Positions 20,514 through 39,052 of a DNA stretch of 64,000 nt are shown here, piece by piece. A program made the translations under genes and the position numbers. The notes beneath the pieces are model-generated. The model was not told where the DNA came from and searched no databases. It saw only the letters and a program-made list of their open reading frames with translations. Each line of letters opens with the position of its first letter. Position 1 is the first letter of the stretch. This stretch comes from an uncultured Jannaschia sp. GTDB lineage: Bacteria; Pseudomonadota; Alphaproteobacteria; Rhodobacterales; Rhodobacteraceae. The DNA lies in contig NZ_CANLTQ010000002.1 of NCBI RefSeq assembly GCF_947494025.1, forward strand, positions 372,001-436,000. Direction: 5' to 3'.

Positions 20514-20603
20514 CGACCCGTTCCCCGGTTCGACCATGCGCGACGCGCCGAAACGGTGGAGGAATTCGGGCTTGCCGGCGGCGTTGAAGCGCCTTCCACC
20601 GCG

Positions 20604-21650
20604 CTACCCGATATCCGCCCGCGCGACACCCGTCGCCTTCACCAGCGCCCAGATCGCCCGGCCTTCGACGAGATCGAGCGCCGTCGCGGAGCGGCGCGTC
20701 ACGCGCGCCAGGAGGTGTCCCTCTCCGATCGCCAGACGCAGCATGACGCCCGGACCGTGCCCCGGCTGAATGGAGGCCACCGTGCCCGCCAGCACGTTGA
20801 GCGCCGACACCTCCCGCGGAGGCTCGGTCGCGACGATCACGTCCTCCGCCCGGATGCGGATGCGGATCCGGGCGCCGATCTCGCCCGCGCCCACGACCTG
20901 CAACGTCCCGACCGGCGTCTCCACCGCCGCGATCCCGTCCCTCTCCGCGACCATCCGCCCGGACAGGACGGCGCCCGCCTGCATGGACCCCATCAACGCG
21001 GCGACGGACGGATCCGAAAGCATGTCGCCCACCGGTCCCGCACGGGCCACCCGGCCGTCGCGCAACAGGACCAGCGTGTCGGCCAGCCGGGCGACCTCCT
21101 CCACCGCGTGGCTGATGTAGAGGATCGGCACGCCCGCGTCCCGCACCCGTTCGAGCCAGGGCAGCACCCGGTCGCGGCGCGGCCCGTCGAGCGCGGCCAG
21201 CGGCTCGTCGAGGATCAGGAGCCGCGGCCGACGGAGCAGCGCCCGCCCAATCGCCACCCGTGCCGCCTCCCCGCCCGAAAGCCCAGCCGTCCGCCGCGCG
21301 AGCAGGCCACCGATCCCCAGCATCTCGCAGACGGGACCGGGATCGGTTCCGCGCGGCGCACCGTAGAGGAGGTTCCGCCGCACGTTCATGTGCGGAAAGA
21401 GCCGCGCCTCCTGAAACACGTAGCCGATGTCGCGCCGGTGCGGCGGCACCGCCGTGCCGCCTCCGAACAACACCCGCCCGTCGAGCGCGATCCGCCCGTG
21501 ATCGGGCCGTGCCAGCCCCGCGACGCAGCGCGCGAGGGTCGTCTTGCCCGCGCCCGACGGCCCAAAGATCGCCGTGGTCCCCGCCCCGACCTCCAGAGCC
21601 ACGTCGAGCGTGAAGGCCCCGACGCTCCGTTTGAACGCGACCTCCAGCAT
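20604..21650 (-). CDS. modC: Molybdate ABC transporter ATP-binding protein
   Basis: 348 residues. The ATPase domain has Walker A GPSGAGKTTLA near 31, Q-loop VFQEARLFPHMNV, signature LSGGEAARVAIGRALL and Walker B LLILDEPLAALD, with the switch His in YISHAVEEV. The C-terminal third (NVLAGTVASIQPG to ALVKATGVARADIG) is a TOBE/molybdopterin-type domain typical of ModC. It powers molybdate import through ModB. The start overlaps the modB stop by ATGA. No ModE regulator is seen. Confidence 0.92.
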   Translation of the reverse strand: MLEVAFKRSVGAFTLDVALEVGAGTTAIFGPSGAGKTTLARCVAGLARPDHGRIALDGRVLFGGGTAVPPHRRDIGYVFQEARLFPHMNVRRNLLYGAPRGTDPGPVCEMLGIGGLLARRTAGLSGGEAARVAIGRALLRRPRLLILDEPLAALDGPRRDRVLPWLERVRDAGVPILYISHAVEEVARLADTLVLLRDGRVARAGPVGDMLSDPSVAALMGSMQAGAVLSGRMVAERDGIAAVETPVGTLQVVGAGEIGARIRIRIRAEDVIVATEPPREVSALNVLAGTVASIQPGHGPGVMLRLAIGEGHLLARVTRRSATALDLVEGRAIWALVKATGVARADIG

Positions 21651-23689: not shown

Positions 23690-24105
23690 CAGTTGGTCTT
23701 TGCCTTCGGCATGAACGGCAACGGCGCGATCGGCACCCCGTCTTCCAGCAGGCTGCGCACCTCGCGCGCGTTCGCCTCTCCGTAGATCGCCTTGTCGGGC
23801 CGTTTCGCCTCGTTCTGCGCGGCCTCGTGCAGCGCGCGCGCCTCCTCGGCGAAGCGGCCGCCGACATAGGTCGCCTCGGTCTCGACCTTGCGGCGGAACG
23901 CGGCGATCCTCGCCTCCAGCGGCGATTGCGGCTCGCTCGCCCGCGTCCCGACCTTGGGCGCCATCAGCGATTTCGAGACATCCACCGATCCGCACGCCGT
24001 GCAGGTCAGCATCTTCCGCCGCGCCAGCCCGTCGAACGCCTCGGCCGACTGGAACCAGCTTTCGAAGACATGCCCCTCGGCGCAGCGAAGTGCGTAACGG
24101 ATCAT
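23689..24105 (-). CDS. DUF1178 family zinc-ribbon-like protein
   Basis: 138 residues beginning MIRYALRCAEGHVFESWFQSAEAF. One cysteine followed by EGH and a second pair in TCTACGS make a short zinc-ribbon-like N-terminal half typical of DUF1178. The rest is a helical region (EARIAAFRRKVE, YVGGRFAEEARALHE) and VPIAPLPF near the C-terminus. The function is unknown. AAGGGG lies upstream of the ATG at 24105. It is the first gene of the SDR-modABC operon. Confidence 0.88.
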   Translation of the reverse strand: MIRYALRCAEGHVFESWFQSAEAFDGLARRKMLTCTACGSVDVSKSLMAPKVGTRASEPQSPLEARIAAFRRKVETEATYVGGRFAEEARALHEAAQNEAKRPDKAIYGEANAREVRSLLEDGVPIAPLPFMPKAKTN

Positions 24106-24237
24106 CGCAAACCCCTTCAGCGAGACTCGCAAGATAGGGCCTCCGGCCGAACCTGCAAGCCGCGGTTGAAGCGACCGAGCCCCGTCTTAGCTCCGCCACA
24201 TGCGGATCCGTCGTTTCATTTCGATCGCTGTCAGGGC

Positions 24238-25368
24238 GTGACGCCGCTCCTCCTCGGCTCGGAGATCTATCGCGGCTCGAGTTACGGGCCGTGGCATCCC
24301 TTGCGCGTGCCGCGCGTGAGCACGGTTCTCGACCTGACCCGCGCGATGGGCTGGCTCCCGCCCGACCGCTTCCGTGCGTCGCCGCGCGCCAAGGCGGCGG
24401 CGCTGACGCTCTGGCATACGCCGGCCTACGTGACGGCGCTGGCACGCGTCGAGGCCACGCAGGCGGCGTGCGAGACGGACAAGGCGCGTCACGGGCTCGG
24501 CACGATCTCCAATCCGGTCTTCCCCGAGATGTTCCGCCGCCCCGCCACAGGGGCCGGCGCCTCTCTCCTCGCGGGCGAGCTCCTGCGCGACGGCGGGCGC
24601 ATCCACAATCCCGGCGGCGGCACGCATCACGGGATGCCGGATCGGGCGAGCGGGTTCTGCTACCTCAACGACGCCGTGCTGGGCATCTTGTCGCTTCGGC
24701 GGAGCGGCGTCCGGCGGATCGCCTATGTCGACATCGACGCGCATCACATGGACGGGGTGGAGCATGCCTTCGCGGACGATCCCGACATGCTCCTCGTCTC
24801 CACCCACGAGGAGCGCCGCTGGCCGTTCACCGGCGCGCTCGGGGATGCGGGCGTCGGCCAGGTCTTCAATCTGCCGCTGCCGCGCGCGGCCAACGACGAC
24901 GAGTTCGCCCTTGCACGCGATCGGGTGATTCTGCCCGCGGTGGAGCGCTTCGCGCCGGACGCGATCGTGCTGCAATGCGGAGCGGATGCGGTGGAGGACG
25001 ACCCACTGTCGCGGCTGGCGCTGTCGAACAACGCGCACTGGGCCTGCCTGGCCGCGTTGATGCCGCTCGCGCCGCGATTCCTGCTGCTGGGCGGGGGTGG
25101 CTATAACCCGTGGTCGGTCGGCCGTCTCTGGTCGGGCAACTGGGCCGTGCTGTCGGGCCAAGACATCCCCGAACGCCTGCCCCCCGAAGCGGAGGCGGTG
25201 CTGCGCGGGTTGCGGTTCGACGGCAATTCCCGCGGCCGCAATCCGCCGGAGCATTGGTTCACCACGCTACGCGACCCGTGGCGCGGCGGGCCGGTCCGCG
25301 CGGAGGTCGTGGACCGGGTGGCGCATCTGGCCGCGCGGATCGGACGGATGCCGGGGCGTCCGGTCTGA
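24238..25368 (+). CDS. Histone deacetylase / AcuC-type deacetylase family protein
   Basis: 376 residues from GTG 24238. The arginase/deacetylase fold motifs are complete: NPGGGTHHGMPDRASGFCYLND with the catalytic His pair, VDIDAHHMDGVEHAF supplying zinc ligands (D and H), the third ligand region LQCGADAVEDDPLS, and the transition-state residue in LLGGGGYN. Bacterial members remove acetyl groups from acetyl-lysine (AcuC on acetyl-CoA synthetase) or from small amines. No acetyltransferase or acs gene is adjacent. The open frame continues far upstream, but the region before the GTG is antisense to DUF1178 and is not coding. Confidence 0.87.
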   Translation: MTPLLLGSEIYRGSSYGPWHPLRVPRVSTVLDLTRAMGWLPPDRFRASPRAKAAALTLWHTPAYVTALARVEATQAACETDKARHGLGTISNPVFPEMFRRPATGAGASLLAGELLRDGGRIHNPGGGTHHGMPDRASGFCYLNDAVLGILSLRRSGVRRIAYVDIDAHHMDGVEHAFADDPDMLLVSTHEERRWPFTGALGDAGVGQVFNLPLPRAANDDEFALARDRVILPAVERFAPDAIVLQCGADAVEDDPLSRLALSNNAHWACLAALMPLAPRFLLLGGGGYNPWSVGRLWSGNWAVLSGQDIPERLPPEAEAVLRGLRFDGNSRGRNPPEHWFTTLRDPWRGGPVRAEVVDRVAHLAARIGRMPGRPV

Positions 25369-25377
25369 CCCGTCGGA

Positions 25378-25425
25378 CCGGGGCCGGCCCCGGACCCCGG
25401 GATATTTGCGAAGCGAAGAAGATGC
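25378..25425 (+). other. Palindromic GC element followed by an ATATTT/GAAGAAG motif downstream of the deacetylase gene
   Basis: CCGGGGCCGGCCCCGG at 25378-25393 is a perfect 16-base palindrome. It is followed by CCCCGGGATATTTGCGAAG (25395-25413) and CGAAGAAGATG. The CCCGGGATATTT...GAAGAAG layout resembles a short intergenic motif I associate with ends of genes in Rhodobacteraceae. It lies between convergent genes and may help end transcription. It occurs once in this window. Confidence 0.4.
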
Positions 25426-25460
25426 GGCCGAACGCGGGCGTCGCGTCCGGCCTTGGCGAC

Positions 25461-26411
25461 TCAAAGGTCGCGGCATTCCGGAACCGGCGTCACGACCGTC
25501 CCGTCCTCCTGCCATTGCAGCAAGTTCCGCACCACAAGGTCGCCCATCGCCGCGCGTGTCTCGTGCGTCGCCGAGCCGACATGCGGCAGGAGGACCACGT
25601 TCTCCATCTCCTTGAGCGCGTCGGGGATCTTCGGCTCGGCCTCGAACACATCGAGCCCTGCCCCCGCGATCCGGCCGTTCAGCAGCGCCTCGATCAGCGC
25701 CGCCTCATCGGCGACCGAGCCACGCGCGAGGTTGAAGAACAGCCCGTCCGGCCCAAGCGCGGTCAAGACCTCGGCGTCGACCAGATGCTCCGTTTCGGCG
25801 CCGCCCGGCGTGATCGCGACCAGAACCTCCACCGCCTCCGCCAGCGCGGCCGGCGTGTCGTGGTAGGTGTAGGGCACGTCCTTGCGGCTGCGCGAATGGT
25901 AGTGGATTTCCGCGTCGAAGACCTTGCAACGCTCCGCGATGGCCTGCCCGATCCGGCCCAGACCCAGAATGCCCACGCGGCGCCCCTGGATCGAACGCGT
26001 CAGCGGGTAGCTGCCCTCGCTCGCCCAGGCACCGGACCTCGCGTGCCGCTCCGACCCGAGAAGGTCCCGCGACACCGCCAGCCAAAGCATGACGAAGGTG
26101 TTGGCCACTTCGTCGTTCAGCACGTCGGGCGTGTGCGAGACCTTGATCCCGCGCGCCGCGCAGGCCGACGCGTCGATCGAATCGTAGCCGACGCCGAAGC
26201 TCGAGACGACGCGCAGCTTCGCCGCCGCGTCGAGCACGTCGCCGGGCAGGCCCGCCGTCGTGACGATCGCGGGATAGTCGCCGCCACGCTCGGCCAGAAA
26301 GGACGCGCGGTCCGACTGCTCGGACAGGACGTCGATCTCGAACGCCTCGGCCAGGGCATCGCGCATCCGGTCGGACATCGATCCGATCTGGAGGAGCTTC
26401 GTTCTACTCAT
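25461..26411 (-). CDS. D-2-hydroxyacid dehydrogenase (glyoxylate/hydroxypyruvate reductase type)
   Basis: 316 residues with the D-isomer hydroxyacid dehydrogenase plan: catalytic-domain edge SSFGVGYDSIDASACAARGI, Rossmann GILGLGRIGQAIA near 146, the substrate Arg in NLARGSVADEAAL, catalytic Glu in VFEAEPKIP and His in LLPHVGSAT. All three catalytic residues are present. Family members reduce glyoxylate, hydroxypyruvate or other 2-oxoacids with NAD(P)H. The gene overlaps the FAH hydrolase by 8 bases, so it probably handles a two- or three-carbon product of the sugar-acid pathway, such as glyoxylate/glycolate; that is inference. Confidence 0.9.
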   Translation of the reverse strand: MSRTKLLQIGSMSDRMRDALAEAFEIDVLSEQSDRASFLAERGGDYPAIVTTAGLPGDVLDAAAKLRVVSSFGVGYDSIDASACAARGIKVSHTPDVLNDEVANTFVMLWLAVSRDLLGSERHARSGAWASEGSYPLTRSIQGRRVGILGLGRIGQAIAERCKVFDAEIHYHSRSRKDVPYTYHDTPAALAEAVEVLVAITPGGAETEHLVDAEVLTALGPDGLFFNLARGSVADEAALIEALLNGRIAGAGLDVFEAEPKIPDALKEMENVVLLPHVGSATHETRAAMGDLVVRNLLQWQEDGTVVTPVPECRDL

Positions 26412-27252
26412 CGACGCGGACCTCCTGACGCTGGCGGCCGAGCTTGTCGATGGAAAGCTCCATGACGTCGCCCGCCTTCAGGTAGACCGCCTCCGGCTTC
26501 ATGCCCATGCCGACGCCCGGCGGCGTGCCGGTGGAGATGACGTCGCCGGGATGCAGGGTGAACATCTGGCTCAGATGGCTGATGCACTCGGCCACCGTGA
26601 AGATCATCGTGCTGGTGTTGCCGGTCTGCATCCGCTGTCCGTTCACGTCGAGATGCATGGCGAGGCTCTGCGGGTCGCCCACCTCGTCGCGGGTGACGAG
26701 CCACGGTCCGATCGGCCCGAACGTGTCGCAGGACTTGCCCTTGGTCCACTGCCCGGTGAGCTTCGTCTGGAAATGCCGCTCCGACACGTCGTTGATGACG
26801 CAGTAGCCGGCGACGTAATCCAGCGCCTCTTCGGGGGAGACGTACTTGCAGGCCGTGCCGATCACCACACCGAGCTCGACCTCCCAGTCCGACCGGGTGG
26901 AGCCGCGCGGCAGGACCACGTCGTCGTCCGGCCCCACGATCGCGGAATTGGCCTTCATGAACAGGATCGGATGCTCGGGGATCTCCGCCCCGGTCTCCGC
27001 GGCGTGGTCGGAATAGTTCAGCCCGATGCACATGAACTTGCCGATCCCCGCGACGCAGGGGCCGAACCGGACCGGATGCTCGACCTTCGGCAGCGTCATC
27101 ACGTCGAGCTTGGAGAGGATCTCGAGCGACTTGTCGGACAGGACCTCGTGGCCAATATCGGAAATCTCGGCACTCAGGTCGCGCAGGTCGCCGTTGTGGT
27201 CGATCAGGCCGGGCTTCTCGGCCCCCGGTTCGCCGTAGCGGCAGAGCTTCAT
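26404..27252 (-). CDS. Fumarylacetoacetate hydrolase family protein (likely 2,4-diketo-3-deoxy sugar acid hydrolase)
   Basis: 282 residues. The FAH fold is seen in GKFMCIGLNYSDHAAETG near 71, FMKANSAIVGPDD, DWEVELGVVIG (metal-binding acid residues), YVAGYCVINDVSER, and the closing GDVISTGTPPGVGMGMKP. Known relatives cleave C-C bonds of acylpyruvates, including 2,4-diketo-3-deoxy-L-fuconate or rhamnonate hydrolases. That fits a cluster that also contains an IlvD-type sugar-acid dehydratase and an SDR, giving dehydration, C4 oxidation and hydrolytic cleavage to pyruvate plus a hydroxyacid. Exact sugar unknown. Confidence 0.88.
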   Translation of the reverse strand: MKLCRYGEPGAEKPGLIDHNGDLRDLSAEISDIGHEVLSDKSLEILSKLDVMTLPKVEHPVRFGPCVAGIGKFMCIGLNYSDHAAETGAEIPEHPILFMKANSAIVGPDDDVVLPRGSTRSDWEVELGVVIGTACKYVSPEEALDYVAGYCVINDVSERHFQTKLTGQWTKGKSCDTFGPIGPWLVTRDEVGDPQSLAMHLDVNGQRMQTGNTSTMIFTVAECISHLSQMFTLHPGDVISTGTPPGVGMGMKPEAVYLKAGDVMELSIDKLGRQRQEVRVDE

Positions 27253-27322
27253 GTCGTGTCTTCCCCGTGTCTTGCGTGTCGAAGTTCGCTGACGGGCTGC
27301 ACACCGGCCGCCCGCCCGTGTC

Positions 27323-29098
27323 CTAGTGGTTGTCGCGGGCGACGCCCTTCTGCGCCGTGCCGCGATAGCTGTCCGCGCCGCGCAACGTCATGCCCTCCGC
27401 GAGGGAGCCGACGCGCTCGCGGAAGATCTCCTGCCAGGGCGTCTGGCTGTCGGGCGTGAAGGGCCGCGCCGGCAAGTCCCGGCGCCGACGCGCCAGCTCC
27501 TCGTCGTCGACCAGCATGTTGGCGGTCGCTCGCCCGAGGTCGATGCGCAGCCGGTCCCCCGTGGCCACCAGCGCCAACCCGCCGCCCGCGGCGGCCTCTG
27601 GCGAGGCGTTCAGGATGGAAGGAGAGCCGGACGTGCCCGATTGCCGCCCGTCGCCGATGCAGGGCAGCGCGTGGATGCCCCGCTTCAGGAGGTAGGAGGG
27701 CGGGCGCATGTTCACGACCTCGGCCGCGCCGGGATAGCCGATCGGCCCGACGCCGCGCATTACGAGGATGCAATTCTCATCGATCCCGAGAGCTTCGTCG
27801 TCGATCTTCGCGTGGTAATCCTCCGGCCCGTCGAAGACGATCGCGCGGCCCTCGAAGGCTTCGGGGTCGTCGGGGTTCGACAGGTAGCGTTCCCGGAACT
27901 CCGGCGAGATCACGGAGGTCTTCATGATCGCCGAGTCGAAGAGGTTGCCCTTGAGGTTCACGAAGCCCGCATCGGCCATCATCGGCCCATCGACCGACTT
28001 GATAACCTCGGGCAGCTCGGAGGCATGGCCTTCGCAATTCGCGCCCATCGTCCGCCCGTTCACCGTGGGCGCGTCGGGATGCGGCATGAGCCCCGCGCGC
28101 ATGAGCTCGCCCACCACGGCGGGCACCCCGCCCGCATGGTAGTAATCCTCGCCCAGATACTCGCCCGCGGGCTGAAGGTTCACGAGCAGCGGCACCCGGT
28201 GGCCGAGCGCCTGCCAGTCGTCGTTGTCGAGCGGGACGCCCAGATGCCGGGCCACGGCGTTCAGGTGGATCGGCGCGTTGGTGGAGCCGCCGATGGCGGA
28301 GTTCACGACCACGGCGTTCTCGAAGGCCGCGCGGGTCATGATGTCCGACGGCTTCAGATCCTCGTGGACCATCTCCACGATCCGCTGGCCCGTCTGATAA
28401 CTGATCTGGCCGCGCTGACGGTAGGGCGCAGGAATGGCCGCCGCGCCAGGCAGCTGCATTCCGAGCGCCTCGGCCAGCGAGTTCATCGTCGTCGCCGTCC
28501 CCATCGTGTTGCAATACCCGACCGAGGGCGTGGAGGAGGCGACGATCTCCATGAAGCCCGCATCGTCGATCTCGCCCGCGGCATGGAGCTCGCGCGCCTT
28601 CCAGACGATCGTGCCGGAGCCGGTCCGCGCGCCGCGGAACCAGCCGTTCAGCATCGGCCCGACCGACAGCGCGATGGCCGGAATGTTGACGGTCGCCGCC
28701 GCCATCAGAAGCGCGGGTGTGGTCTTGTCGCAGCCGATCATCAGCACCACCCCGTCGAGCGGGTAGCCGTTCAGCGTCTCCACGAGCGACAGATAGGCGA
28801 GGTTGCGGTCAAGCGACGCCGTGGGCCGCTTGCCCGTCTCCTGAATCGGATGGACCGGCACCTCGAGCGGGACGCCGCCCGCCGCGATGATCCCGTCGCG
28901 GACCCGCTTGGCCAGTTCGAGGTGGTGGCGGTTGCAGGGGCTGAGGTCGCTGCCGGTCTGCGCGATCGCGATGATCGGCTTGTTGCCCTGCAGCTCCTCC
29001 CGCGTGAGGCCGTAATTGAGGTATCGCTCAAGGTAGAGCGCCGTCATCTCCCGGTTGTCGGGATTGTCGAACCACAGGCGGGAGCGCAGCTTTGTCAT
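27323..29098 (-). CDS. IlvD/Edd family sugar-acid dehydratase
   Basis: 591 residues, typical of pentonate/hexonate dehydratases. Iron-sulfur ligand cysteines appear in [22 protein letters not shown] and [42 protein letters not shown] and [23 protein letters not shown] are further family marks. The opening [19 protein letters not shown] is characteristic of the L-arabinonate/D-xylonate/D-fuconate type rather than biosynthetic IlvD. It converts an aldonic acid to a 2-keto-3-deoxy acid. It reads from ATG 29098, 61 bp after the SDR stop and ahead of the FAH gene on the same strand. Confidence 0.9.
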
Positions 29099-29158
29099 CG
29101 TACGGTGCTCTGTTTTGTCAATGTTTCGTAAGGAGTCACCCTCGGGTCGCCGCACACT

Positions 29159-29899
29159 TCACTGCCCGGACCAGCCGCCGTCGATGATGTGCGGATGGCC
29201 GGTGGTGAAGGCGCTCTCGTCGGAGGCGAGATAGGTGACGAGCGCGGCGATCTCGCGGGCGGTGGCGACGCGTCCCATCGGCTGCCGGGCGACGAACTGC
29301 GCCATCGCCTCCTCTTTGGAGCCGAGCTGCTGGCCAAGGGCCTCGACCCGCTCGTGCCAGGACGGGGATTCGACGGTGCCGGGGCAGATCGCGTTGCAAC
29401 GGATGCCCTGCTTCACGTAATCGACCGCGACCGATTTGGTGAGGCCGATCACCGCCGCCTTGGTCGCGCCGTAGACGAAGCGGTTCGGCGCGCCGATCAC
29501 CGAGGAGCAGGCCGACGACATGTTGACGATGGACCCACCGCCCGCCTCCAGCATGACCGGCAGCGCCGCCCGGATGGTGCGGAACATCGACTTCACGTTG
29601 AGATCGAAGCCGAAGTCCCAGTCCGCGTCGCTCGCGTCCATGAGCGTGCCGTGATGGACGAAGCCCGCGCAGTTGAAGAGCACGTCCGGCCGCGCGCGCC
29701 CGACCCCATCGCGGACGGAGGCGTCGTCGCGCGCGTCGAGCGCGTATGTCTCGCAGTCGAGCCCGTCGAGCAGGCCCGCGTCGAGATCGGTCGCGAAGAC
29801 CTCCGCTCCTTCGGCGATGAACATTTCGGCCGTGGCCCGGCCGATGCCCTGACCCGCGGCGGTGATCAGGGCCCGCTTGCCCTTGAGACGATCGGTCAT
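29159..29899 (-). CDS. SDR family oxidoreductase, probable 2-keto-3-deoxy-L-fuconate dehydrogenase type
   Basis: 246 residues. ALITAAGQGIGRATAEMF near the N-terminus, NCAGFVHHG, VNMSSACSS and YGATKAAVIGLTKSVA (YxxxK) form a complete classical SDR; CNAICPGTVESPS and TGHPHIIDGGW close the fold. The AAGQGIGRA and IDLNVKSMF-like pattern resembles BDH2 and bacterial 2-keto-3-deoxy-L-fuconate dehydrogenases. Those oxidise C4 of the dehydratase product, which the FAH enzyme can then cleave. GGAGGATGAC precedes the ATG at 29899. It heads the leftward operon, divergent from the HIBADH-type gene across 65 bp. Confidence 0.87.
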   Translation of the reverse strand: MTDRLKGKRALITAAGQGIGRATAEMFIAEGAEVFATDLDAGLLDGLDCETYALDARDDASVRDGVGRARPDVLFNCAGFVHHGTLMDASDADWDFGFDLNVKSMFRTIRAALPVMLEAGGGSIVNMSSACSSVIGAPNRFVYGATKAAVIGLTKSVAVDYVKQGIRCNAICPGTVESPSWHERVEALGQQLGSKEEAMAQFVARQPMGRVATAREIAALVTYLASDESAFTTGHPHIIDGGWSGQ

Positions 29900-29964
29900 G
29901 TCATCCTCCCCGTTGTGCTTCCGGCTACGGGGTTTCAGGGTGGCGTGCAACGGAGGAGACGCGC

Positions 29965-30831
29965 ATGACCCAGCTTACCCTGCTCGGAACCGGATTGATG
30001 GGGGCGCCGATGGCCCGCAACCTCGTCCGCGCGGGTCACGACCTGCGGGTCTGGAACCGCACGCCCGACAAGGCCCGCGCGATCGAGGGGGCGCGGGCCT
30101 TCGATGACCCGGCGGAAGCGGTCACCGGATCCGCCGTCGTGATCTCCATGCTCGCGGACGGTCCGGCTTCCGCGGAGATCGAGGACGCGGCGATGGCGGG
30201 GTTCGCGGACGGGGCGATCTGGGTCGAGATGGCCTCCATCCGACCGGCCGAGGCCCGCGCGGCGGGCGACCGCTTCGCCGGGCGGGGCATGGGCTACGTG
30301 GACGCGCCCGTTTCGGGCGGCACCCGCGGCGCGGAGGACGGAACACTGGCGATCATGGCGGGCGGAGACGCGGACGTCGTTGCCCGTGTCGTCCCGGTGC
30401 TGGAGGCCATGGGCCGGCCGGTCCATGTGGGCCCCGCGGGCACGGGACAGCTCGCGAAACTCGCCAACCAGGCGATCGTCGCCTGCACGATCGGCGCCGT
30501 GGCCGAGGCGATGCTGCTGCTCGAGGAAGGCGGCGCCGATCCGGCTGCGGTGCGCGACGCCCTGAAGGGCGGCTTCGCGGACAGCACGATCCTGCAGCAG
30601 CACGGCGCCCGGATGACGGAACGCGATTTCCGCCCCGGGGGGCCGATCACGCATCAGATCAAGGATCTGGACAACGTCCTCGATGCGGCGGGCGCGCTCG
30701 ACCTGCCGGCCGTGCGTGCGGTGACCGAGCGGTTCAGGACGCTGCGCGACACCATGGACGGCGGTGCGCTGGATCATTCCGCGCTGTATCTCGAACTGCG
30801 CCGGCGGAACGGCTTAGGTTCGATAAATTAA
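29965..30831 (+). CDS. 3-hydroxyisobutyrate dehydrogenase family NAD(P)-dependent oxidoreductase
   Basis: 288 residues. LLGTGLMGAPMARNLVRAGH is the nucleotide site, VDAPVSGGTRGAEDGTLAIMAGG the substrate-binding block and GTGQLAKLANQAIVACTIGAVAEAM contains the catalytic Lys. The family includes tartronate semialdehyde reductase (GarR), LtnD-type 2-hydroxy-acid dehydrogenases and MmsB. In this cluster a sugar-acid or tartronate role is most likely. CGGAGGAG precedes the ATG. It is the first rightward gene opposite the SDR and precedes the broken TRAP transporter. Confidence 0.88.
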   Translation: MTQLTLLGTGLMGAPMARNLVRAGHDLRVWNRTPDKARAIEGARAFDDPAEAVTGSAVVISMLADGPASAEIEDAAMAGFADGAIWVEMASIRPAEARAAGDRFAGRGMGYVDAPVSGGTRGAEDGTLAIMAGGDADVVARVVPVLEAMGRPVHVGPAGTGQLAKLANQAIVACTIGAVAEAMLLLEEGGADPAAVRDALKGGFADSTILQQHGARMTERDFRPGGPITHQIKDLDNVLDAAGALDLPAVRAVTERFRTLRDTMDGGALDHSALYLELRRRNGLGSIN

Positions 30832-30839
30832 TAGGCTAA

Positions 30840-30894
30840 GAGGTTTACCTCACAAGTAGTACCATCGTCGCCGCGCGGAAATGCATCTTTGCAT
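30840..30894. promoter_or_regulatory. Two short inverted repeats in an AT-rich patch upstream of dctP
   Basis: GAGGTTTACCTC at 30840-30851 is an inverted repeat (GAGGT/ACCTC), and ATGCATCTTTGCAT at 30881-30894 is a hairpin-like repeat. The surrounding 60 bases are clearly richer in A and T than the flanks. They could be operator or promoter elements of the dctPQM operon, but no regulator is encoded nearby. Confidence 0.3.
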
Positions 30895-30902
30895 GCCGGT
30901 AC

Positions 30903-31967
30903 GTGGGATCGGTGTTCCGCTGGCGGGCCATGCCGCGACTGGCCCGGACGCCCCGCAGCATCGCGAAATCGGAGGGCCCGGCCTTCGGGAGTTCCGTCGT
31001 GACCACAGCGCTCGCCGGTGCCGCGACCGCGCAGCAGACGACCCTGCGCATCCAGACCCACTACAACCTCGACCAGATGAGCGGTCAGCTCGCGCAGGAA
31101 TTCTTCGACAGGATCGAGACGATGTCGAACGGCGAGATCACGATCGAGCCGTTCTTTTCCTTTTCCGTGGTCAAGTCGGTCGAGACGTTCGACGCGGCCG
31201 CCACCGGCATCCTCGATTGCGACATGACGGGCGGCGCCTACCAGACCGGCAAGAACCCGGCCTTCCAGTTCGTGGGCGACATCATGGGCGGCTACGACAC
31301 GCCCTACCAGCAGCTGTCGTGGCTCTATTACGGCGGCGGGCTCGAAGCCGCGCAGGAGCTCTAAAACCAGTACGACATGCAGCTCGTCGGCTGGTGGGTC
31401 TACGGACAGGAGAGCCTGGCCTCGAAGACGCCGGTGAACGGCGTGGCCGACCTTCAGAACTGGAAGTTCCGCTCGCCGCCGGGCATGGAGACGAAGATCT
31501 TCGAAAAGCTGGGCGCGGTTCCGGTCGTGATGGACTTCACCGAGGTCTTCACCGCGCTCGAGACCGGCATCATCGACGCGGCCGACTATTCCGGCCTCGC
31601 CAACAACGAGAGCATCGGCCTCTTCGACCTCGTGAGCTACGCAACCTATCCGGGCTTCCATTCGATGCCGTCGGACCACCTTGCCTGCAACAAGAACGTA
31701 TGGGATTCGATGCCCGAGCATCATCGCGCGATCATCTCCACCGCGATGGAATCGCTGGCGCTGCGCACGGCGCTCTCCTTCGAGAAGCTGAACGCGGAAG
31801 CCGCGGCGCGGCTGCGCGAGGCCGGCGTGACGCTGGCCAGCTGGTCGGACGAGGACCGGCAGGAGTTCCGCGACGCGGCGCAGGCGAGTTGGCCCGAATT
31901 CGCCACTACCCCGGAGGCGGAAGCGCTGGTCGAGTCGCATATGAGCGACCTGTCCGATCTCGGGCTC
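30903..31967 (+). pseudogene. dctP: TRAP transporter substrate-binding protein DctP, disrupted by an in-frame stop
   Basis: The frame encodes a DctP receptor: QQTTLRIQTHYNLDQMSGQL, ETFDAAATGILDCDMTGGAYQTGKN in two parts, then an in-frame TAA at 31362-31364 exactly where a tyrosine is expected (AQEL-stop-NQYDMQLVGWW). The same frame then continues with FRSPPGMETKIFEKLG, VFTALETGIIDAADY and YPGFHSMPSDHLACNKNVW. The TAA therefore looks like a single-base nonsense change (TAC or TAT to TAA). The N-terminus is also poor: GSSVVTTALAGAATAQQ resembles the end of a signal peptide, but there is no normal n-region or ribosome site. No stop separates it from dctQ. A functional receptor is not expected unless the stop is read through. 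Confidence 0.82.
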
Positions 31968-32627
31968 GTGTCCGACGACGGGGCCGACCCCGTCGCCTGG
32001 CTCGCGCTCGCGGGCGTCTTCGTGTTCTTCGGGCTCGGCGTGGCGACGGTGCGCCGCGCGCCCATGGAATACAAGGATTGGGGCTGGTTCGACCGGGTCT
32101 CGGTCTTCGTCGGCCGTGTCACGATGCTCCTCATCGGGGTGCTCGTCTGCGTCATGATCTATGAGGTCTTCATGCGCTACGTGGTCGAGCGACCGACGCT
32201 TTGAGCCAGCGAGCTGTCATTGTGGATGGCCGGGTTCATCTTCATCCTGTCGGGCCTCTACGCGATGCAGCAGCGCAGCCACATCCGTATCTACCTGCTC
32301 TACGACATCCTGCCGCGGCCGCTGCAAAAGGTCTGCGACGTGATCTCGGTGGCATTGATCCTCGCCATCGCCTTCTTCCTGTTCTGGGGCGGGTGGGGCG
32401 AGGCCAGCCAGAAATACCTCCGGTGGGAGACGTTCGACACCGCCTTCGACCCACCGATCCCGACGACGCTCAAGCCGATGATCCTGATCGTCGTCACGCT
32501 GGTCGCCATCCAGGCGCTCGCGAACCTGATCCGCGACTGGGACGCCGCGCCGGTCCAGCACAGCGCCGCCGACGACATCGACCCGGACGAGGTCGAGCGG
32601 CTGCGCCGGCAGGTCGGTGCGGAATGA
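31968..32627 (+). pseudogene. dctQ: TRAP transporter small permease DctQ, disrupted by an in-frame stop
   Basis: DctQ similarity begins in the same frame as dctP with no stop between them. GTG 31968 could start it: VAWLALAGVFVFFGLG, then RRAPMEYKDWGWFDRVSVFVGR, VTMLLIGVLVCVMIYEVFMRYV. At 32202-32204 a TGA interrupts ERPTL-stop-ASELSLWMAGF where tryptophan is expected, consistent with TGG to TGA. The frame then resumes with FIFILSGLYAMQQRSHIRIYLL and ends at 32627. The two halves split the four-helix small subunit, so the product should be inactive. The lack of a stop between receptor and permease is a further irregularity. Confidence 0.8.
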
Positions 32628-32665
32628 TCCGATCCGTCGGACGGGACGGCTGAGGAGAGCGAACG

Positions 32666-33809
32666 ATGGACGTCGGAACGATATCTCTGATCCTGCTGAT
32701 CGCGCTCATGCTGCTGCTCGCGATCGGCATGCCGCTGGGCTTCGCCTCCGCGATCCTCGCGGTCGCGGTGTTGGTGATGAAGTTCGAGCCCGCGCTCCTT
32801 TCCGCGCCCTGGACCTTCGGCGAGGGGATGCTGACGGGGCGCTTCGGGTCGGGGCCGCTCAACATCCTGGCGCAGAAGATCTACGGGCTGCTGACCGACT
32901 ACGTCCTGATCTCGATCCCGCTCTTCATCTTCATGGCGGCGCTTCTGGAGCGGTCGGGGATCGCCAAGGACATGTATTCCTCCCTCAACGTGTGGATGAA
33001 CCGCACGCGGGGCGGCATCGCCATCGTCACCTCCATCATGGCGGTCATCATGGCGGCGATAACAGGGATCATCGGCGGCGAAGTCGTGCTTCTGGGCCTG
33101 ATCGCGTTGCCGCAGATGCTCCGGCTGGGCTACGACCGCAACCTCGCCATCGGCACGATCTGCACGTCCGGATCGCTCGGCACGATGATCCCGCCCTCGA
33201 TCGTGCTGATCATCTACGGGCTCATCACCGAGACCTCGATCAAGGCGCTCTTCACCGCGGCCTTCCTGTTGGGCTTCATGCTCGCCTCCTTCATCATCGT
33301 CTACATCGTCGTGCGCACGCAGGCGAACCCGGCGCTGGCCCCCCTGCCCGAGGCATCCGCCGACGACCCGGCGCCGGGCGAGAAGGGCGGCGCTCGCGCT
33401 CCTCTTCTTCGCGTTCAAGCCGCACCGGGCCAATCGGGACTGGCGGATGGGCAAGGGGCTCGTCGCGCCCATCGTGATGTTCATGGACTGGGTGGGGATC
33501 GTGCTTCTGATCATCCCCGTCTTCCTGCCGATCGTGCAGCGCCTGCCCATCGAGGAGATCGGGATCCTCGGCACGTTGGAGCCCGCGAACCTCTCGATCT
33601 GGTTCGGCGTTCTCTTCTGCATAAACATGCAGGTGAGCCTCCTGTCGCCGCCTTTCGGCCCGGCCGCCTTTTACCTGAAATCCGTCGCGCCGCCCGGGAT
33701 TTCGTTGACCGACATCTTCCGCGGCTTCCTGCCCTTCATCGGCATCCAGATCCTCGCGCTGTCGATCCTGCTGCTCTATCCCCCGATCGTCGAGATCCTC
33801 CTCGACTGA
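32666..33809 (+). pseudogene. dctM: TRAP transporter large permease DctM, frameshifted and internally deleted
   Basis: The first 230 residues are normal DctM: MPLGFASAILAVAVL, DYVLISIPLFIFMAALLERSGIA, GIIGGEVVLLGLIALPQML and TSGSLGTMIPPSIVLIIYG. Near 33380-33395 the coding frame shifts: in frame 2 the text degenerates after PAPGEKGG, while frame 3 continues as AALALLFFAFKPHRANRDW and MGKGLVAPI. It then jumps straight to VMFMDWVGIVLLIIPVFLPIV, MQVSLLSPPFGPAAFYLKSVAPP and the natural C-terminus at 33809. About 110-120 residues of the usual middle (several helices) are absent at about 33475. GGAGAG precedes the ATG. Both lesions together make the permease non-functional. Confidence 0.8.
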
Positions 33810-33996
33810 CCCTGACGCCCGCGCCTCCGTTCCTGCTTCCGAAACATCCCGGGATGGCCGATGGCGGGTCGCCGATCCGAGGGCCATCGGCGACGGGCTG
33901 GCCCCGGTTCGGCCGCAGATACAAGCACAAGCGGGGACTTCTAACTTCCCCGGCCGGGGTCTATGACGGAGACATCCCAAGCCGATCGAGCCTCCG

Positions 33997-35499
33997 ATGA
34001 CCCGCACCATTCGCCTGCACGCCTCCGACAACGTCGTCACCGCGACCGGCCCGATGGGGGCCGGGGCGGCGGTCGAGGGGGTGGTCACCAGCGCGCTGAT
34101 CCCGACCGGACACAAGATCGCCACCCGTCCCATCGCCACGGGCGAGGCGATCGTGAAATACGGGCAGATTATCGGCTACGCCTCCGTTGACATCGCGCCG
34201 GGCGACCATGTCCATGTGCAGAACTGCGCGTTCCGGGCCACCGACCATGCCTACGAATTCGGCACCGACCTCCGTCCGGTCGCGCCGGCGACCGGCGACA
34301 CCTTCATGGGCTACCGCCGCAGGAACGGCGCGGTCGGCACGCGGAACTACGTCGCGGTGCTGACCTCCGTGAACTGCTCCGCCACCGCCGCCCACATGAT
34401 CGCCGACGCCTTCGGCCCGGAAGAGATGGCGCGCTATCCGAACGTGGACGGGGTCTGCGCCTTCACCCACGGCACCGGCTGCGGCATGGCGGGCGACGGC
34501 GACGGGTTCGAGGCGCTCCAGCGGGTGATGTGGGGCTATGCCCGCCATCCGAACCACGCCGCCGTCCTGATGGTTGGCCTCGGCTGCGAGATGAACCAGA
34601 TCGACTGGCTGCTCGATGCCTGGGGCCTCGAGCATTCGCCGACCTTCCAGACGATGAACATCCAGAACGTCGCAGGCCTGCGCCGCACGGTCGAGGCGGG
34701 GATCGAGACGGTCCGCGCGATGCTGCCCATCGCCAACGAGGCGGTGCGCGAGCCCTGCCCCGTCTCCGAACTGACGGTCGCGCTGCAATGCGGCGGCTCC
34801 GACGCCTGGTCGGGGATCACCGCGAACCCGGCGCTGGGCCATGCCTGCGACCTCCTCGCGGCGCAGGGCGGGACCGGCGTCCTGGCCGAGACGCCGGAGA
34901 TCTACGGCGCCGAGCATCTGCTGACCCGGCGTGCGGTGGACAACGCGACGGGCGAGCGGCTCGTCGGCCTGATCGAATGGTGGAAGGACTATACCGAGCG
35001 CAACCGCGGCTCGATGGACAACAACCCGTCTCCCGGCAACAAGAAGGGCGGACTCACCACCATCCTCGAGAAGTCGCTCGGCGCGGCGGCGAAGGGCGGC
35101 ACGACGCCGCTTACCGGCGTCTACAAGTACGCCGAGCAGGTCCGCGCCCGCGGCTTCACCTTCATGGACAGTCCCGGCTACGACCCGGCCTCGGTGACGG
35201 GGCAGATCGCGGGGGGCTGCAACCTCGTCTGCTTCACCACGGGGCGCGGGTCCGCCTTCGGCTCGAAGCCCGCCCCGACGATCAAGGTGGCGACGAACCA
35301 GACGCTCTTCGACCGGATGCCCGAGGACATGGACATCAACGCCGGCGACATCCTCGACGGCCGTTCCACCGTGGAGGCGAAGGGGCGCGAGATCTACGAG
35401 ACGTTCCTGCGCGTGGCCTCCGGCGAGACGACCAAGTCCGAGGCGCAGGGGCTGGGCGACCATGAATTCGTGCCGTGGCAGATCGGGGCGGTGATGTGA
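33997..35499 (+). CDS. UxaA family dehydratase (altronate/galactarate dehydratase type)
   Basis: 500 residues with both UxaA parts in one chain: an N-terminal SAF domain (IRLHASDNVV, GHKIATRPIATGEAIVKYGQIIG) and the long catalytic domain with FMGYRRRNGAVGTRNYVAVLTSVNCSA in segments, FTHGTGCGM, MVGLGCEMNQID, LQCGGSDAWSGITANPALG and FTTGRGSAFGSKPAPTIKVATN. Members dehydrate D-altronate, D-galactarate or related sugar acids using iron. Downstream of a dead transporter, this gene itself has no visible damage. The Shine-Dalgarno before the ATG is weak; an overlapping ATG at 33963 is in another frame and rejected. Confidence 0.9.
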   Translation: MTRTIRLHASDNVVTATGPMGAGAAVEGVVTSALIPTGHKIATRPIATGEAIVKYGQIIGYASVDIAPGDHVHVQNCAFRATDHAYEFGTDLRPVAPATGDTFMGYRRRNGAVGTRNYVAVLTSVNCSATAAHMIADAFGPEEMARYPNVDGVCAFTHGTGCGMAGDGDGFEALQRVMWGYARHPNHAAVLMVGLGCEMNQIDWLLDAWGLEHSPTFQTMNIQNVAGLRRTVEAGIETVRAMLPIANEAVREPCPVSELTVALQCGGSDAWSGITANPALGHACDLLAAQGGTGVLAETPEIYGAEHLLTRRAVDNATGERLVGLIEWWKDYTERNRGSMDNNPSPGNKKGGLTTILEKSLGAAAKGGTTPLTGVYKYAEQVRARGFTFMDSPGYDPASVTGQIAGGCNLVCFTTGRGSAFGSKPAPTIKVATNQTLFDRMPEDMDINAGDILDGRSTVEAKGREIYETFLRVASGETTKSEAQGLGDHEFVPWQIGAVM

Positions 35500-35556
35500 C
35501 GCCGGCCCCGTGACGTTGACGGCACGGTCGGGAGCGCCCGTATTTCGCGCCGTCGC

Positions 35557-36477
35557 ATGGCGGCGGGCGCACCGCTGATGCCGCCGCCGGTTCCGGTCTC
35601 CCGGCTCGCGCGGCCGCGCGTCGACGATGCGGGTCGCGGCATCCTCCTGATGCTGGTGGCCAACGCCTTCTTCGCGATGAACGACACGTCGGTGAAGTGG
35701 CTGTCGCTCGCGGGGCTGCCCGCGTTGCAGCTCGCCTTCATGCGCTACGCCACGCATCTGGTGCTTTCCACCGGGCCGATGCTCGGGCGCGACCGTTCCG
35801 GCTGGACCGCGCCCTGGCCGGTGTCGGGGCTGATGCTGCTGCGCGGGGGGCTGCTCCTCGTCTCGACGATCACCAACTTTTTCGCGCTGCGCTATCTCGA
35901 CCTGACGACCATCGCGGCGATCACGTTCTCCTCGCCGATCCTCGTCTCCGCCCTTTCGGTGCCGCTTCTGGGCGAGCGTGTCGGGCGGCTCCGCTGGGCG
36001 GCGATTGCCGTGGGCTTCCTGGGCGTTCTCGTGGTCGTGCGCCCGTGGGATGCGTCGTTCCACCCGGCAATGCTCCTGTCGGTGACGAGCGCGCTGGCCC
36101 TGTCGCTCTTCTCGATCCTGACGCGCCGCCTCGCGGGGATCGCGGCCCCGCGGACGATGCAGCTCTATGCCGGGCTCGTCGGCACGTCGGTGCTGGCGCC
36201 GTTCATGTTCTGGATCTGGGAGATGCCGGCCACGGCATTCGAATGGGCGCTCATGCTCGGCTTCGGCGGCCTTGCCTGGACCGGGCACCACTTCTTCTCC
36301 CACGCGCATGGCTTCGCACCGGCCAGCGTGCTGATGCCGTTCAGCTACGCCTTTCTCGTCTACATGACCGTGACGGGCTTCGTCGTGTTCGGCACGGTGC
36401 CGGACGCGACGACGATCGTGGGCGCGATGGTGATCGCGGCGGCGGGATTGTTCATCTGGTGGCGCGAACGGAGGTGA
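35557..36477 (+). CDS. DMT superfamily transporter (EamA type)
   Basis: 306 residues with ten hydrophobic segments in two EamA repeats: GILLMLVANAFFAMNDTSVKWL opens the first (viewed in parts), ITNFFALRYLDLTTIAAITFSSPILVSALSVPLLGERVG is the typical end of repeat one, and WTGHHFFSHAHGFAPASVLMPFSYAFLVY that of repeat two. The family moves small metabolites, often outward, sometimes inward. An in-frame ATG at 35578 is an alternative start. The stop is 2 bases before the first Gfo/Idh/MocA gene, so these genes are linked. It might serve the sugar-acid cluster now that the TRAP system is broken, but this is speculative. Confidence 0.87.
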   Translation: MAAGAPLMPPPVPVSRLARPRVDDAGRGILLMLVANAFFAMNDTSVKWLSLAGLPALQLAFMRYATHLVLSTGPMLGRDRSGWTAPWPVSGLMLLRGGLLLVSTITNFFALRYLDLTTIAAITFSSPILVSALSVPLLGERVGRLRWAAIAVGFLGVLVVVRPWDASFHPAMLLSVTSALALSLFSILTRRLAGIAAPRTMQLYAGLVGTSVLAPFMFWIWEMPATAFEWALMLGFGGLAWTGHHFFSHAHGFAPASVLMPFSYAFLVYMTVTGFVVFGTVPDATTIVGAMVIAAAGLFIWWRERR

Positions 36478-36478
36478 C

Positions 36479-37483
36479 ATGAAGGTCGGACTGATCGGAA
36501 CGGGAATGGTCGCGGCGACGCATGTGGCGGCGATCCGCGATGCGGGGCTCGAACTCGCTACGGTGATGGCGCGCGATCCGGCGAAGACACGGGCCTTCGC
36601 GCAGCGGCACGGCGCGCGGGCGGTCGAAAGCGTCGAGGCGCTTGCCTCGGGTGTCGATTTCGTCATCCTCCTGACCCCGCCGAATGCACGACAGGACCAT
36701 GTCGCGGCGCTTGCGCGCGCGGGCGTGCCGATCCTCGCCGAAAAGCCGATCGAGCGGGATCTGGCGCGGGCCACGGCGCTGGTGGAGGCCTGCGAGGCGG
36801 CGAACGTGCCCTTCGGCGTGACGCTCCAGCACCGGATGCGCCCCGCCGCGCAGATGCTCGCGCGGCAGATGGCGGGGCTGGGGACGATCGCCTCGGTCGA
36901 CCTGCGCGTGCCGTGGTGGCGCGACCCGTCCTATTACGACGAACCGGGGCGTGGCACCTATGAGCGCGACGGCGGCGGCGTGCTGCTGACGCAGGCGATC
37001 CACGCCATCGACCTGATGCTGCATCTTTGCGGCCCCGTCGGCGCGGTGCAGGCGATGGTTGCGTCGACGCCGCTCCACGATCTCGAGGCGGAGGATTTCG
37101 CGGCCGCCGCGCTGCGGTTCGAGAGCGGCGCCACGGGCGCGTTGATGGCGTCGGTCACGCACCGCCCCGGCGGGACGGAGGCGTTGACGATCAACGGGAC
37201 GGGAGGATCGGCCGTGCTTGCGGGCGGGGAGCTCACGGTGACCGGGGCGGACGGCGAAAGCCGCAGCTTCGGCGAGCCGGCGGCGGGCACGGGCGGCGGG
37301 GCCGACCCGATGGCGTTCCAGCACGACTGGCACCAGGCGGTGATCGAGGACTTCGCCTCCGCCCTGCGGGAGGGTCGCGCGCCGGCGATCCCGGCGCGCG
37401 ACACGCTGCCGGCCATCGCGCTCATCGACGCGATCCAGGCCTCGGCCCGGTCGGGACACAGGGAGGAGATCGAGGATGTCTGA
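36479..37483 (+). CDS. Gfo/Idh/MocA family oxidoreductase (first copy)
   Basis: 334 residues. VGLIGTGMVAATHVAAIRDAG is the Rossmann start, VDFVILLTPPNARQDHV and VPILAEKPIERDLARA the nucleotide/EKP motif with catalytic Lys, and GVLLTQAIHAIDLMLHLCGP the substrate-side His region. The family oxidises or reduces sugars and cyclitols with NAD(P). It overlaps the second copy by 8 bases and follows the DMT transporter by 1 base, so the three are one unit. The substrate is unknown; location suggests a sugar acid or derived lactone. Confidence 0.9.
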   Translation: MKVGLIGTGMVAATHVAAIRDAGLELATVMARDPAKTRAFAQRHGARAVESVEALASGVDFVILLTPPNARQDHVAALARAGVPILAEKPIERDLARATALVEACEAANVPFGVTLQHRMRPAAQMLARQMAGLGTIASVDLRVPWWRDPSYYDEPGRGTYERDGGGVLLTQAIHAIDLMLHLCGPVGAVQAMVASTPLHDLEAEDFAAAALRFESGATGALMASVTHRPGGTEALTINGTGGSAVLAGGELTVTGADGESRSFGEPAAGTGGGADPMAFQHDWHQAVIEDFASALREGRAPAIPARDTLPAIALIDAIQASARSGHREEIEDV

Positions 37484-38471
37484 GGGAATCGCCGTCATCG
37501 GCATCGACCACCGGCACTGCTACACGATGGTCGCGAACCTGATCGAGGCCGGCGGGCATCTGGTCGGCTGGGCCACCGAGGGGGAGCCGGGCACGCTCGA
37601 CGGCTGGGTCGAGCGCTACCCCGACGCGCCGCGGCGCACGGAGGCGGAGCTTCTGGCCGATCCGGAGGTTTCCATCGTCGTCACCGCGGGGGTGCCGTTC
37701 GAACGGCCGGGCATTTCCTGCCGCGCGATGCGGGCCGGCAAGCATGTCCTGAGCGATAAACCGGGCGCGCTGACCGAGGACGACCTCGAAGCGATCCGCC
37801 GGACCGCCGCGGAGACCGGGCGCATATGGGCCGTCGACTTCAGCGAACGCTTCGAGGTGCCGGGCATGACCCGCGTCTCCCGCCTCGTGGCCGAGGGCGT
37901 CATCGGCGAGGTGATCGACGTGACGCTGCTGGCGCCACACCGGCTGAACGCGCCGACGCGCCCGGACTGGTTCTGGGACCACGCGAAGGGCGGCGGCATC
38001 CTCGCGGATATCGGCTCCCACCAGATCGAGCAGGTGCTGCACCTGTCCGGCGCGAGCGAGGGCGAGATCCTGTTCGCGGAAGCCTCCTGCCTGCGCGAGG
38101 CGCCGTTCCAGGACCGGGGCCGGATCGCGATGCGCGCGGGCCGGGCCACGGGGACGATCCTTCTGCACTGGTACACGCCCGACGCGCTGCCGAGCTGGGG
38201 GGACGGACGGCTCTTCGTGACCGGGACGGAGGGCTTTGTCGAAATCCGCAAGTATGTCGATCCCGAGGGGGCGGAGGGGGGCGATCACGTCATCCTCGTC
38301 AACAACGACCGCTCCGAGCGGTGGCAGGCATCGGACGAACGCCTGCCCTTCTTCGCGGACTTTCTCGCGGGCGTCCGGGCGGGTCGGGCCCCGGACCCGG
38401 ATCACCCGTTCCGCGTCATGGCGCTCGCCATCGAGGCGCAAAGGATGGCGGACGCGAAGCGCGGGGGCTGA
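37476..38471 (+). CDS. Gfo/Idh/MocA family oxidoreductase (second copy, divergent)
   Basis: 331 residues. IAVIGIDHRHCYTMVANLIEAGG opens the Rossmann fold with a GIDHRH variant in place of the usual GxGxxG, so cofactor binding may differ; GKHVLSDKPGALTEDDL has the DKP/EKP catalytic lysine, and GGGILADIGSHQIEQVLHLSG the His-containing substrate region. It overlaps the first copy by 8 bases yet differs strongly from it, which argues for distinct roles rather than recent duplication. I see nothing operon-like downstream. Confidence 0.87.
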   Translation: MSEGIAVIGIDHRHCYTMVANLIEAGGHLVGWATEGEPGTLDGWVERYPDAPRRTEAELLADPEVSIVVTAGVPFERPGISCRAMRAGKHVLSDKPGALTEDDLEAIRRTAAETGRIWAVDFSERFEVPGMTRVSRLVAEGVIGEVIDVTLLAPHRLNAPTRPDWFWDHAKGGGILADIGSHQIEQVLHLSGASEGEILFAEASCLREAPFQDRGRIAMRAGRATGTILLHWYTPDALPSWGDGRLFVTGTEGFVEIRKYVDPEGAEGGDHVILVNNDRSERWQASDERLPFFADFLAGVRAGRAPDPDHPFRVMALAIEAQRMADAKRGG

Positions 38472-39052
38472 CCTTTTCGGCGGCGGTCGTTTTCCTGACC
38501 GCCACGTTCGGCTCCGGCGTCCTGTCGACCGTCGGGGGCGCCTCGGGTGCGCGGCCGGGGCTGCGCTGCCCCGTCGGGCTTTGTTTCGGGTCGAACCTCG
38601 TGACAGTGGCCGACATATCGGAGCTGACCGTGCCGATACGCGTGGATACGCGACCGCACATTATCCCGCTCCCGTCCTCCGAGGGCGGCCTTCTCTATCC
38701 CGCCTTCCGGCTCGCCACGGCGAGCGCCCGGCTTCGTTGATGGCTTGGCGCCGCAAGCGATCGATCCCGAGGCTTATGCCGGGGGCACCGCCCTGTTCTC
38801 CGGCGTTCGGGTCTTTCCCGCGGCGACGCCGGTGCGCTCGTCAAGCCCGCGATCGTGTGCGCGATCCGGATGCCGCTGTCTCCCGCGCCGTCTCGACCTC
38901 ACGCAAAGGATGCGGCGAAAGATGAACGTGTCGATGCGGGCTGTCGTGGCGCTGGCCACACTGACGAAGCCCCGCGCCAAGCGGACCCGGCACACCGTGT
39001 CGGCCCATCTTTCCGACATGCGCGAAGGACGGGTCCGTGACCATCGGCTTTA
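38472..39052. other. 581-bp gene-free stretch before tRNA-Cys
   Basis: No reading frame here shows recognisable protein features. Just after the Gfo gene, GGCGGTC/GACCGCC (about 38482-38503) can form a hairpin with an 8-base loop but has no T-run. The rest is unpatterned high-GC sequence; short open frames on both strands cross into the tRNA and are not credible. Confidence 0.5.

Follow-up and report, generated by a model that had tools for sequence, protein, structure and literature searches.

Organization of the locus and lesions in the transporter genes

Within a window of 64,000 nucleotides from an uncultured Jannaschia sp. (contig NZ_CANLTQ010000002.1, positions 372,001 to 436,000), we analysed a sugar-acid catabolic gene cluster that encloses dctP, dctQ and dctM, the genes of a tripartite ATP-independent periplasmic (TRAP) transporter. 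The three subunits are still recognisable, since the Pfam models DctP, DctQ and DctM all score above cut-off on open pieces, and none of the genes has a complete reading frame left: the operon carries two internal stop codons and three deletions, dctM is frame-shifted and dctP has lost its start. Based on our data, we read the region 30812-33809 as a genuine, young and deletion-driven pseudogene block, which comprises a GntR/FCD regulator gene together with dctPQM and lies in a pathway that is itself maintained (probability about 0.88). This reading draws directly on what is shown: the assembly carries the lesions, the relatives that we examined do not, the genes on either side are intact and constrained, and the block was lost a second time, independently, in G009, another member of the genus.

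As reference we used the nearest intact copy (L029), which is located on contig NZ_CANLTR010000007.1 of Jannaschia sp. isolate 2-223 (the sister genome, G012:C7). It is collinear with positions 24054-38878 of the window, with 87-88% DNA identity in the flanks and 90-91% in dctP, dctQ and the first part of dctM; deletion sizes were computed from the offsets between successive DNA matches of the two sequences. Two substitutions create stop codons, an in-frame TAA at 31362-31364 in dctP and a TGA at 32202-32204 in dctQ, and three aligned relatives (L029, L030, L032) carry a Tyr and a Trp codon at these places, just as an earlier note, made from the letters of the window, had expected. The same note had remarked that no stop separates dctP from dctQ. 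This is explained by a 367-bp deletion with its junction at ~31975, which removed the end of dctP, the spacer and the ~56 first codons of dctQ and thereby fused both genes in frame. In dctM, the frame change that had been noticed near 33385 is due to a 170-bp deletion at 33386, and a further 315-bp deletion at ~33480 preserves the frame. The gap in the centre of dctM is real but had been put too low at 110-120 residues, as 485 bp (~162 codons) are gone in total and residues 241-433 of a 542-aa relative are absent from the reading frames.

Compared with the intact orthologues at the same locus in the three aligned relatives, these are several independent inactivating changes. Together with the region upstream of dctP, the window lacks ~1.56 kb relative to L029 (704 net + 367 + 170 + 315 bp), and with 4.7 kb between the GarR stop and the uxaA start in L029, about a third of the block has disappeared. 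The junctions overlap by about 0-4 bases only, for which reason we rejected a repeat-mediated or programmed deletion. A repeat search of the window alone found only short, imperfect families and would not reveal repeats that were lost with the deleted DNA.

The damage extends further than the earlier note had stated, as it overlooked the loss of the regulator gene, the promoter region and the dctP start. Between 30811 and 30995, ~704 bp net are missing, and with them the divergent GntR/FCD gene, the promoter region between it and dctP, which both shared, and the beginning of dctP. In L029, this gap holds a divergent regulator of 218 aa (Pfam FCD 7.5e-12, GntR 5.7e-8). A full GntR gene is found at this place in L030 and L032 (loci of the cultured J. 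rubra and J. formosa) as well, and the window has short remnants only, the best of them at 30926-30993 (68 bp with 73.5% identity, E 5e-10 when just the two sequences were compared). The spacer between GntR and dctP is A+T-rich and similar across the genus; in L029 it carries the dyad GATATTC-N4-GAATATC, of which versions with 2-5 mismatches occur in eight of the nine other spacers inspected (none in L155). No match to the dyad with ≤3 mismatches was detected in the window, a weak result when taken alone with 0.63 matches expected by chance, and the main evidence for the loss of the regulator is the alignment and not the missing dyad. A promoter and terminator scan gave one promoter-like and three terminator-like sites, close to the shuffled expectation. 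The regulator may have gone before the transporter; its remnant is too short for dating.

An assembly or sequencing error, with an intact operon in the strain and a wrong contig, has in its favour that this is a draft assembly of 215 contigs and that the species is represented by one genome. Nevertheless, we regard such an error as very improbable. Two substitutions, three deletions and an eroded regulator would all have to fall within one functional unit, and misjoins of short-read assemblers usually share long overlaps, in contrast to the ~0-4 bases seen here. Furthermore, among the 16 DctP-family genes of the genome only this dctP has an internal stop, the other 15 having none, and the catabolic genes are open on both sides.

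The neighbouring genes are full length in comparison with the relatives (Table 1), in line with the earlier statement that the flanking catabolic genes are open. For the GarR-like protein the top NCBIfam model is tartro_sem_red, with a score under the model cut-off.

Table 1. Genes and gene remnants of the decayed block and its surroundings (positions in the window).
Feature	Position	Strand	Remarks
2-hydroxyacid dehydrogenase, FAH-type hydrolase, IlvD/Edd-type dehydratase, SDR (short-chain dehydrogenase/reductase) genes, intact	25461..29950	-	NCBIfam; 88-96% protein identity to L029, full length
GarR-like gene (2-hydroxy-3-oxopropionate reductase type), intact	29965..30831	+	left border of the decayed block; Pfam NAD_binding_2 / NAD_binding_11; 87.6% protein identity to L029
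divergent GntR/FCD regulator gene and dctP promoter region, remains only	30812..30994	-	~704 bp net missing
dctP remnant	30995..31977	+	start codon, first codons and 3' end lost; in-frame TAA at 31362; 90.8% DNA identity to L029; Pfam DctP on both open pieces
dctQ remnant	31975..32627	+	~56 first codons lost via 367-bp deletion; TGA at 32202
dctM remnant, first piece	32666..33385	+	residues 1-240 of the 542-aa relative
dctM piece, out of frame	33386..33482	+	between the 170-bp deletion (33386) and the 315-bp deletion (~33480)
dctM remnant, last piece	33480..33809	+	residues 434-542; frame differs from first piece; Pfam DctM positions 324-412
UxaA/galactarate-dehydratase-type gene, intact	33997..35499	+	Pfam GD_AH_C, GD_AH_second, SAF; 95.6% to L029
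DMT (drug/metabolite transporter; EamA) gene and two Gfo/Idh/MocA dehydrogenase genes, intact	35557..38471	+	Pfam; 91-93% to L029

The block in related genomes

None of the close relatives examined shares the lesions, and the alignment to intact DctPQM of relatives (L029, L030, L032) bears them out, so that the idea of a transporter in decay within an intact cluster holds. Among 19 other genomes drawn from the genus, a DctM orthologue is present in 18, none with an internal stop, the exception being G009, and an IlvD orthologue is present in all 19. The 18 include G005 and G010, whose DctM gave a partial match in the genus-wide scan and a match over the whole length in the locus comparison. 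In these two genomes DctM is ~43-48 codons longer than the 542-residue form usual in the genus (L149:9913-11682 in G005 and L148:4918-6672 in G010). When eleven relatives were compared at the locus, dctP, dctQ and dctM each appeared as a single near-full-length protein match in ten, G009 being the eleventh. GntR is full or nearly full length in nine of the eleven, reduced to a fragment in G009 and not found in L149, the locus of G005, where the transporter is present and the SDR gene was likewise not found beside it.

Over the 40 kb around its cluster, G009 has uxaA, GarR, SDR, IlvD, FAH and hydroxyacid dehydrogenase genes of full or almost full length; no match to dctP, dctQ or dctM turned up there, and GntR is cut down to residues 17-88 between uxaA and GarR. 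In a phylogeny built from IlvD, FAH and UxaA of 14 loci, the window and L029 form a group with support 1.000 that does not include G009; the placement of G009 itself has weak support. Since L029 has an intact block, the losses in the window and in G009 are independent. The same block has thus been lost twice within the genus, with the loss in G009 looking the more advanced one. Elsewhere in G009, a DctP-family gene lies in pieces with several internal stops (G009:C68:814-1637), which makes it a decayed binding-protein gene outside the window's own genome.

Selection and timing of the loss

To estimate the ratio of nonsynonymous to synonymous changes (dN/dS), changes were assigned to the window and L029 branches by outgroup vote. 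The transporter remnant gave 0.182 on the window branch vs 0.119 on the L029 branch, and the nine other cluster genes gave 0.140 vs 0.167. A branch codon model with seven taxa covered 891 codons of the transporter and, for the flanks, 2233 codons from six genes (hydroxyacid dehydrogenase, FAH, IlvD, SDR, GarR, uxaA). For the transporter, omega was 0.055 on the window branch vs 0.048 in the background, with a non-significant gain of 0.14 in log-likelihood (lnL); with the sister branch also freed, it was 0.064 for the window and 0.029 for the sister (total lnL gain 1.46 for two parameters). The flanking genes had an omega of 0.036 on the window branch vs 0.060 elsewhere (lnL gain 5.8 for one parameter), and therefore constraint on the catabolic genes is stronger, not weaker, on the window branch.

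The latter result also bears on the scenario that the whole cluster is being lost and the catabolic genes have merely not been hit yet. The same contig does hold other genes that are eroded in comparison with the sister (CitMHS/TrkA_C, Band_7, GSDH), but the omega of the flanking genes is lower and not higher on the window branch, and G009 has kept the same enzymes though its transporter loss looks more advanced. We therefore consider a loss of the whole cluster unlikely.

For the timing of the loss, we fitted a model in which the last fraction f of the window branch evolves without constraint. With a common background the optimum was f = 0, and f = 0.05 was worse by 3.9 log units; with the background lowered by 0.6, in keeping with the flanking genes, the optimum was f = 0.02, with 0.05 worse by 1.9 and 0.08 by 5.3. 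The fit thus places the loss of constraint in the last 0-3% of the window branch, and the neutral change since the loss would be 1.5-1.7% per site at f = 0.05. Therefore, the loss of the coding sequence is recent, and as there is almost no relaxation in the transporter remnant, constraint was lost late on the window branch. This agrees with the recent loss that had been proposed from the window.

Some points weigh against the interpretation as a genuine and young pseudogene block. The lesions are known from the assembly alone, and from a single genome of this species. For the TRAP remnant, relaxation is not significant in the codon model, so that dN/dS by itself is no proof of gene death, and the branch counts (0.182 vs 0.119) do no more than lean toward relaxed constraint. 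The missing relaxation signal is consistent with a very young loss.

Following the interpretation as a young pseudogene block, the GntR/FCD regulator and the facing dctPQM operon would have been inactivated recently by two point stops and several deletions with short overlaps. Uptake through the dctPQM carrier would be gone, the sugar-acid pathway would now run without its regulator, and the substrate would reach the enzymes by internal production or via another carrier.

Putative substrate and alternative carriers

Among solved structures, the chains nearest to DctP are 4pe3 (E 4.5e-56), then 2zzv, 7ug8 (named ketoacid-binding protein) and 2hzk (TakP). In total, 44 distinct chains match with E values up to 1e-10, and many other ligands are named for those further away. 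We take 2zzv to be the lactate-binding protein TTHA0766, the name given for 7e9y. The names of the near chains and the TakP paper (PMC1839085) point to 2-oxo or 2-hydroxy acids in this branch. By sequence, the window protein belongs to the same family of binding proteins as these chains, but unlike them its gene is broken. Aldonic acids are 2-hydroxy acids, so that a sugar-acid substrate is possible, with an aldonic acid itself being a guess. The catabolic genes resemble routes via a diketo-deoxy acid hydrolase. The model for 2,4-didehydro-3-deoxy-L-rhamnonate hydrolase has a cut-off of 500 bits, and the FAH protein reaches 443, which is near this limit yet under it. The L-gulonate locus reported for Halomonas and Chromohalobacter (PMC5507952) likewise combines GntR, TRAP and sugar-acid catabolic genes. 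In contrast to it, regulator and transporter are destroyed in the window, and the likeness is one of gene content.

Another transporter elsewhere in the genome may have taken over uptake of the same substrate and freed GntR-dctPQM from selection, a cause of decay that is compatible with our interpretation. The catabolic genes are still strongly constrained. Of the 15 other DctP-type proteins in the genome, nine are matched in the sister genome by DNA of 75-94% identity over ~840 bases, and six have no close DNA match among the sister's 21; one of these six systems could be the carrier. On the other hand, there is no candidate carrier with a known substrate, none of the DctP matches listed from the own genome exceeds 32% identity, and the DMT gene of the cluster is common to relatives that keep the TRAP transporter. 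We thus hold a takeover to be possible and treat it as tentative. The same identity limit among the listed matches led us to reject a close paralogue as the replacement.

The earlier note had named the adjacent DMT (EamA) protein as a possible replacement. We dropped this candidate, because the gene also accompanies intact transporters in relatives: L029 has an intact dctPQM plus the same DMT gene, and among seven other relatives a DMT match occurs in the dctPQM locus of four (L030, L037 and L042 at 70-74%, L034 at 52%). The comparison of eleven relatives likewise gave matches in four (L030, L149, L152, L153, of which L152 and L153 are truncated because the stretch ends there). No DMT match occurs in G009 within the 40 kb that were examined, and the transporter is lost there as well. 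EamA proteins are mostly known as exporters.

A broader explanation would be that GntR-dctPQM is a detachable uptake module, which has been shed repeatedly in the genus and family with the enzymes kept under strong selection. The cause would be that the substrate arises in the cell, e.g. by the neighbouring Gfo/Idh dehydrogenases, so that uptake control becomes dispensable or harmful. Taken as a whole, cause included, this explanation appears doubtful to us. In a survey of 394 genomes of the family, a DctM orthologue was scored in 95 and an IlvD orthologue in 96 (own genome included), both in 43 and IlvD only in 53, a count that overstates the absence of the transporter as scoring was limited to the three best candidates of each genome. 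From the 53 IlvD-only genomes, 20 loci were examined, and two of them (G359, G216) do carry the transporter. Among the remaining 18, five (G374, G312, G260, G122, G154) lack the cluster apart from IlvD, and a sixth (G190) is a contig of 4.2 kb. In G226 and G267 all six catabolic genes are present and the transporter is missing, and therefore the enzymes can stand without the dctPQM carrier. Ten membrane-type open reading frames near such clusters were typed, which gave a further DctM (G312) and three ABC permeases (two in G227, one in G335); the remaining ones are not obvious carriers or not near homologues.

Relation to known gene decay

Young bacterial pseudogenes are described to lose DNA quickly through deletion, according to the study by Kuo and Ochman (2010; PMC2916853). 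The window likewise holds a stop-bearing remnant with intact neighbours; in comparison with the pseudogenes as described there, the block is already gone by about a third, through several separate deletions. The loss of a third of the block with little neutral drift fits rapid removal, and a single case proves no selection. The kind of event is already known as ordinary gene decay, and the window is a new example with a modest extra, namely the repeated joint loss of regulator and carrier with the enzymes kept. A literature search gave no recognised report of this loss, with most papers in subscription journals outside its reach. The locus is a clear natural case in which carrier and regulator are being erased and the pathway they served stays under selection. 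Its value lies in a sister genome whose intact transporter genes are ~90% identical in DNA, and in a second, more advanced loss within the genus. Two questions can thereby be tested in marine bacteria that are harmless: what feeds the pathway without its carrier, and do young pseudogenes lose DNA faster than neutral decay predicts?

Erosion elsewhere in the genome

With a possible genome-wide deletion bias of this lineage in view, the stretch C2:289601-410878 of the own genome was compared with G012:C7, which gave 27 gaps between neighbouring matches, counted by hand with out-of-order rows excluded, and the sister is longer in 23 of them, four of which lie at this locus. The outgroups G007 and G015 cover 12% and 25% of C7, too little to polarise most gaps. 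At this locus, three of the four extra sister pieces are fully covered by both outgroups; the fourth, mostly spacer, is covered to 17% and 27%, and its two flanks are covered as well. Some gaps need not be losses of the window lineage, as at least one sister-only piece (C7 118434-122603) holds what look like mobile genes on reading. Of 102 sister genes searched in the own genome, 69 are intact, 20 flagged as broken and 13 absent, and in the reverse comparison of 87 genes 73 are intact, nine flagged as broken and five absent in the sister; both counts include false alarms due to wrong frames or starts.

Several eroded genes were observed individually. About 5.5 kb before the first base of the window, two short pieces are left of a CitMHS/TrkA_C-type transporter gene (G000:C2:366246-366546, L142). 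Its sister counterpart encodes 620 aa (G012:C7:89781-91640), with sister gaps of 471, 714 and 385 bases vs L142, and G015 covers the three sister pieces at this site by 96%, 27% and 58%. Remnants of a Band_7 gene (G000:C2:357188-357324, L141) and of a GSDH gene together with the 5'-nucleotidase-type gene next to it (G000:C2:333804-334666, L140) correspond to open genes in the sister genome. At 20515-20608 of the window, the sister has ~4.2 kb extra with seemingly transposase-like and RND-like pieces, judged from the translations, none of which is in the window. On another contig (G000:C5:127971-128668, L145), the C-terminal part of a further DctM fragment is split over two frames and looks like a second decayed TRAP gene.
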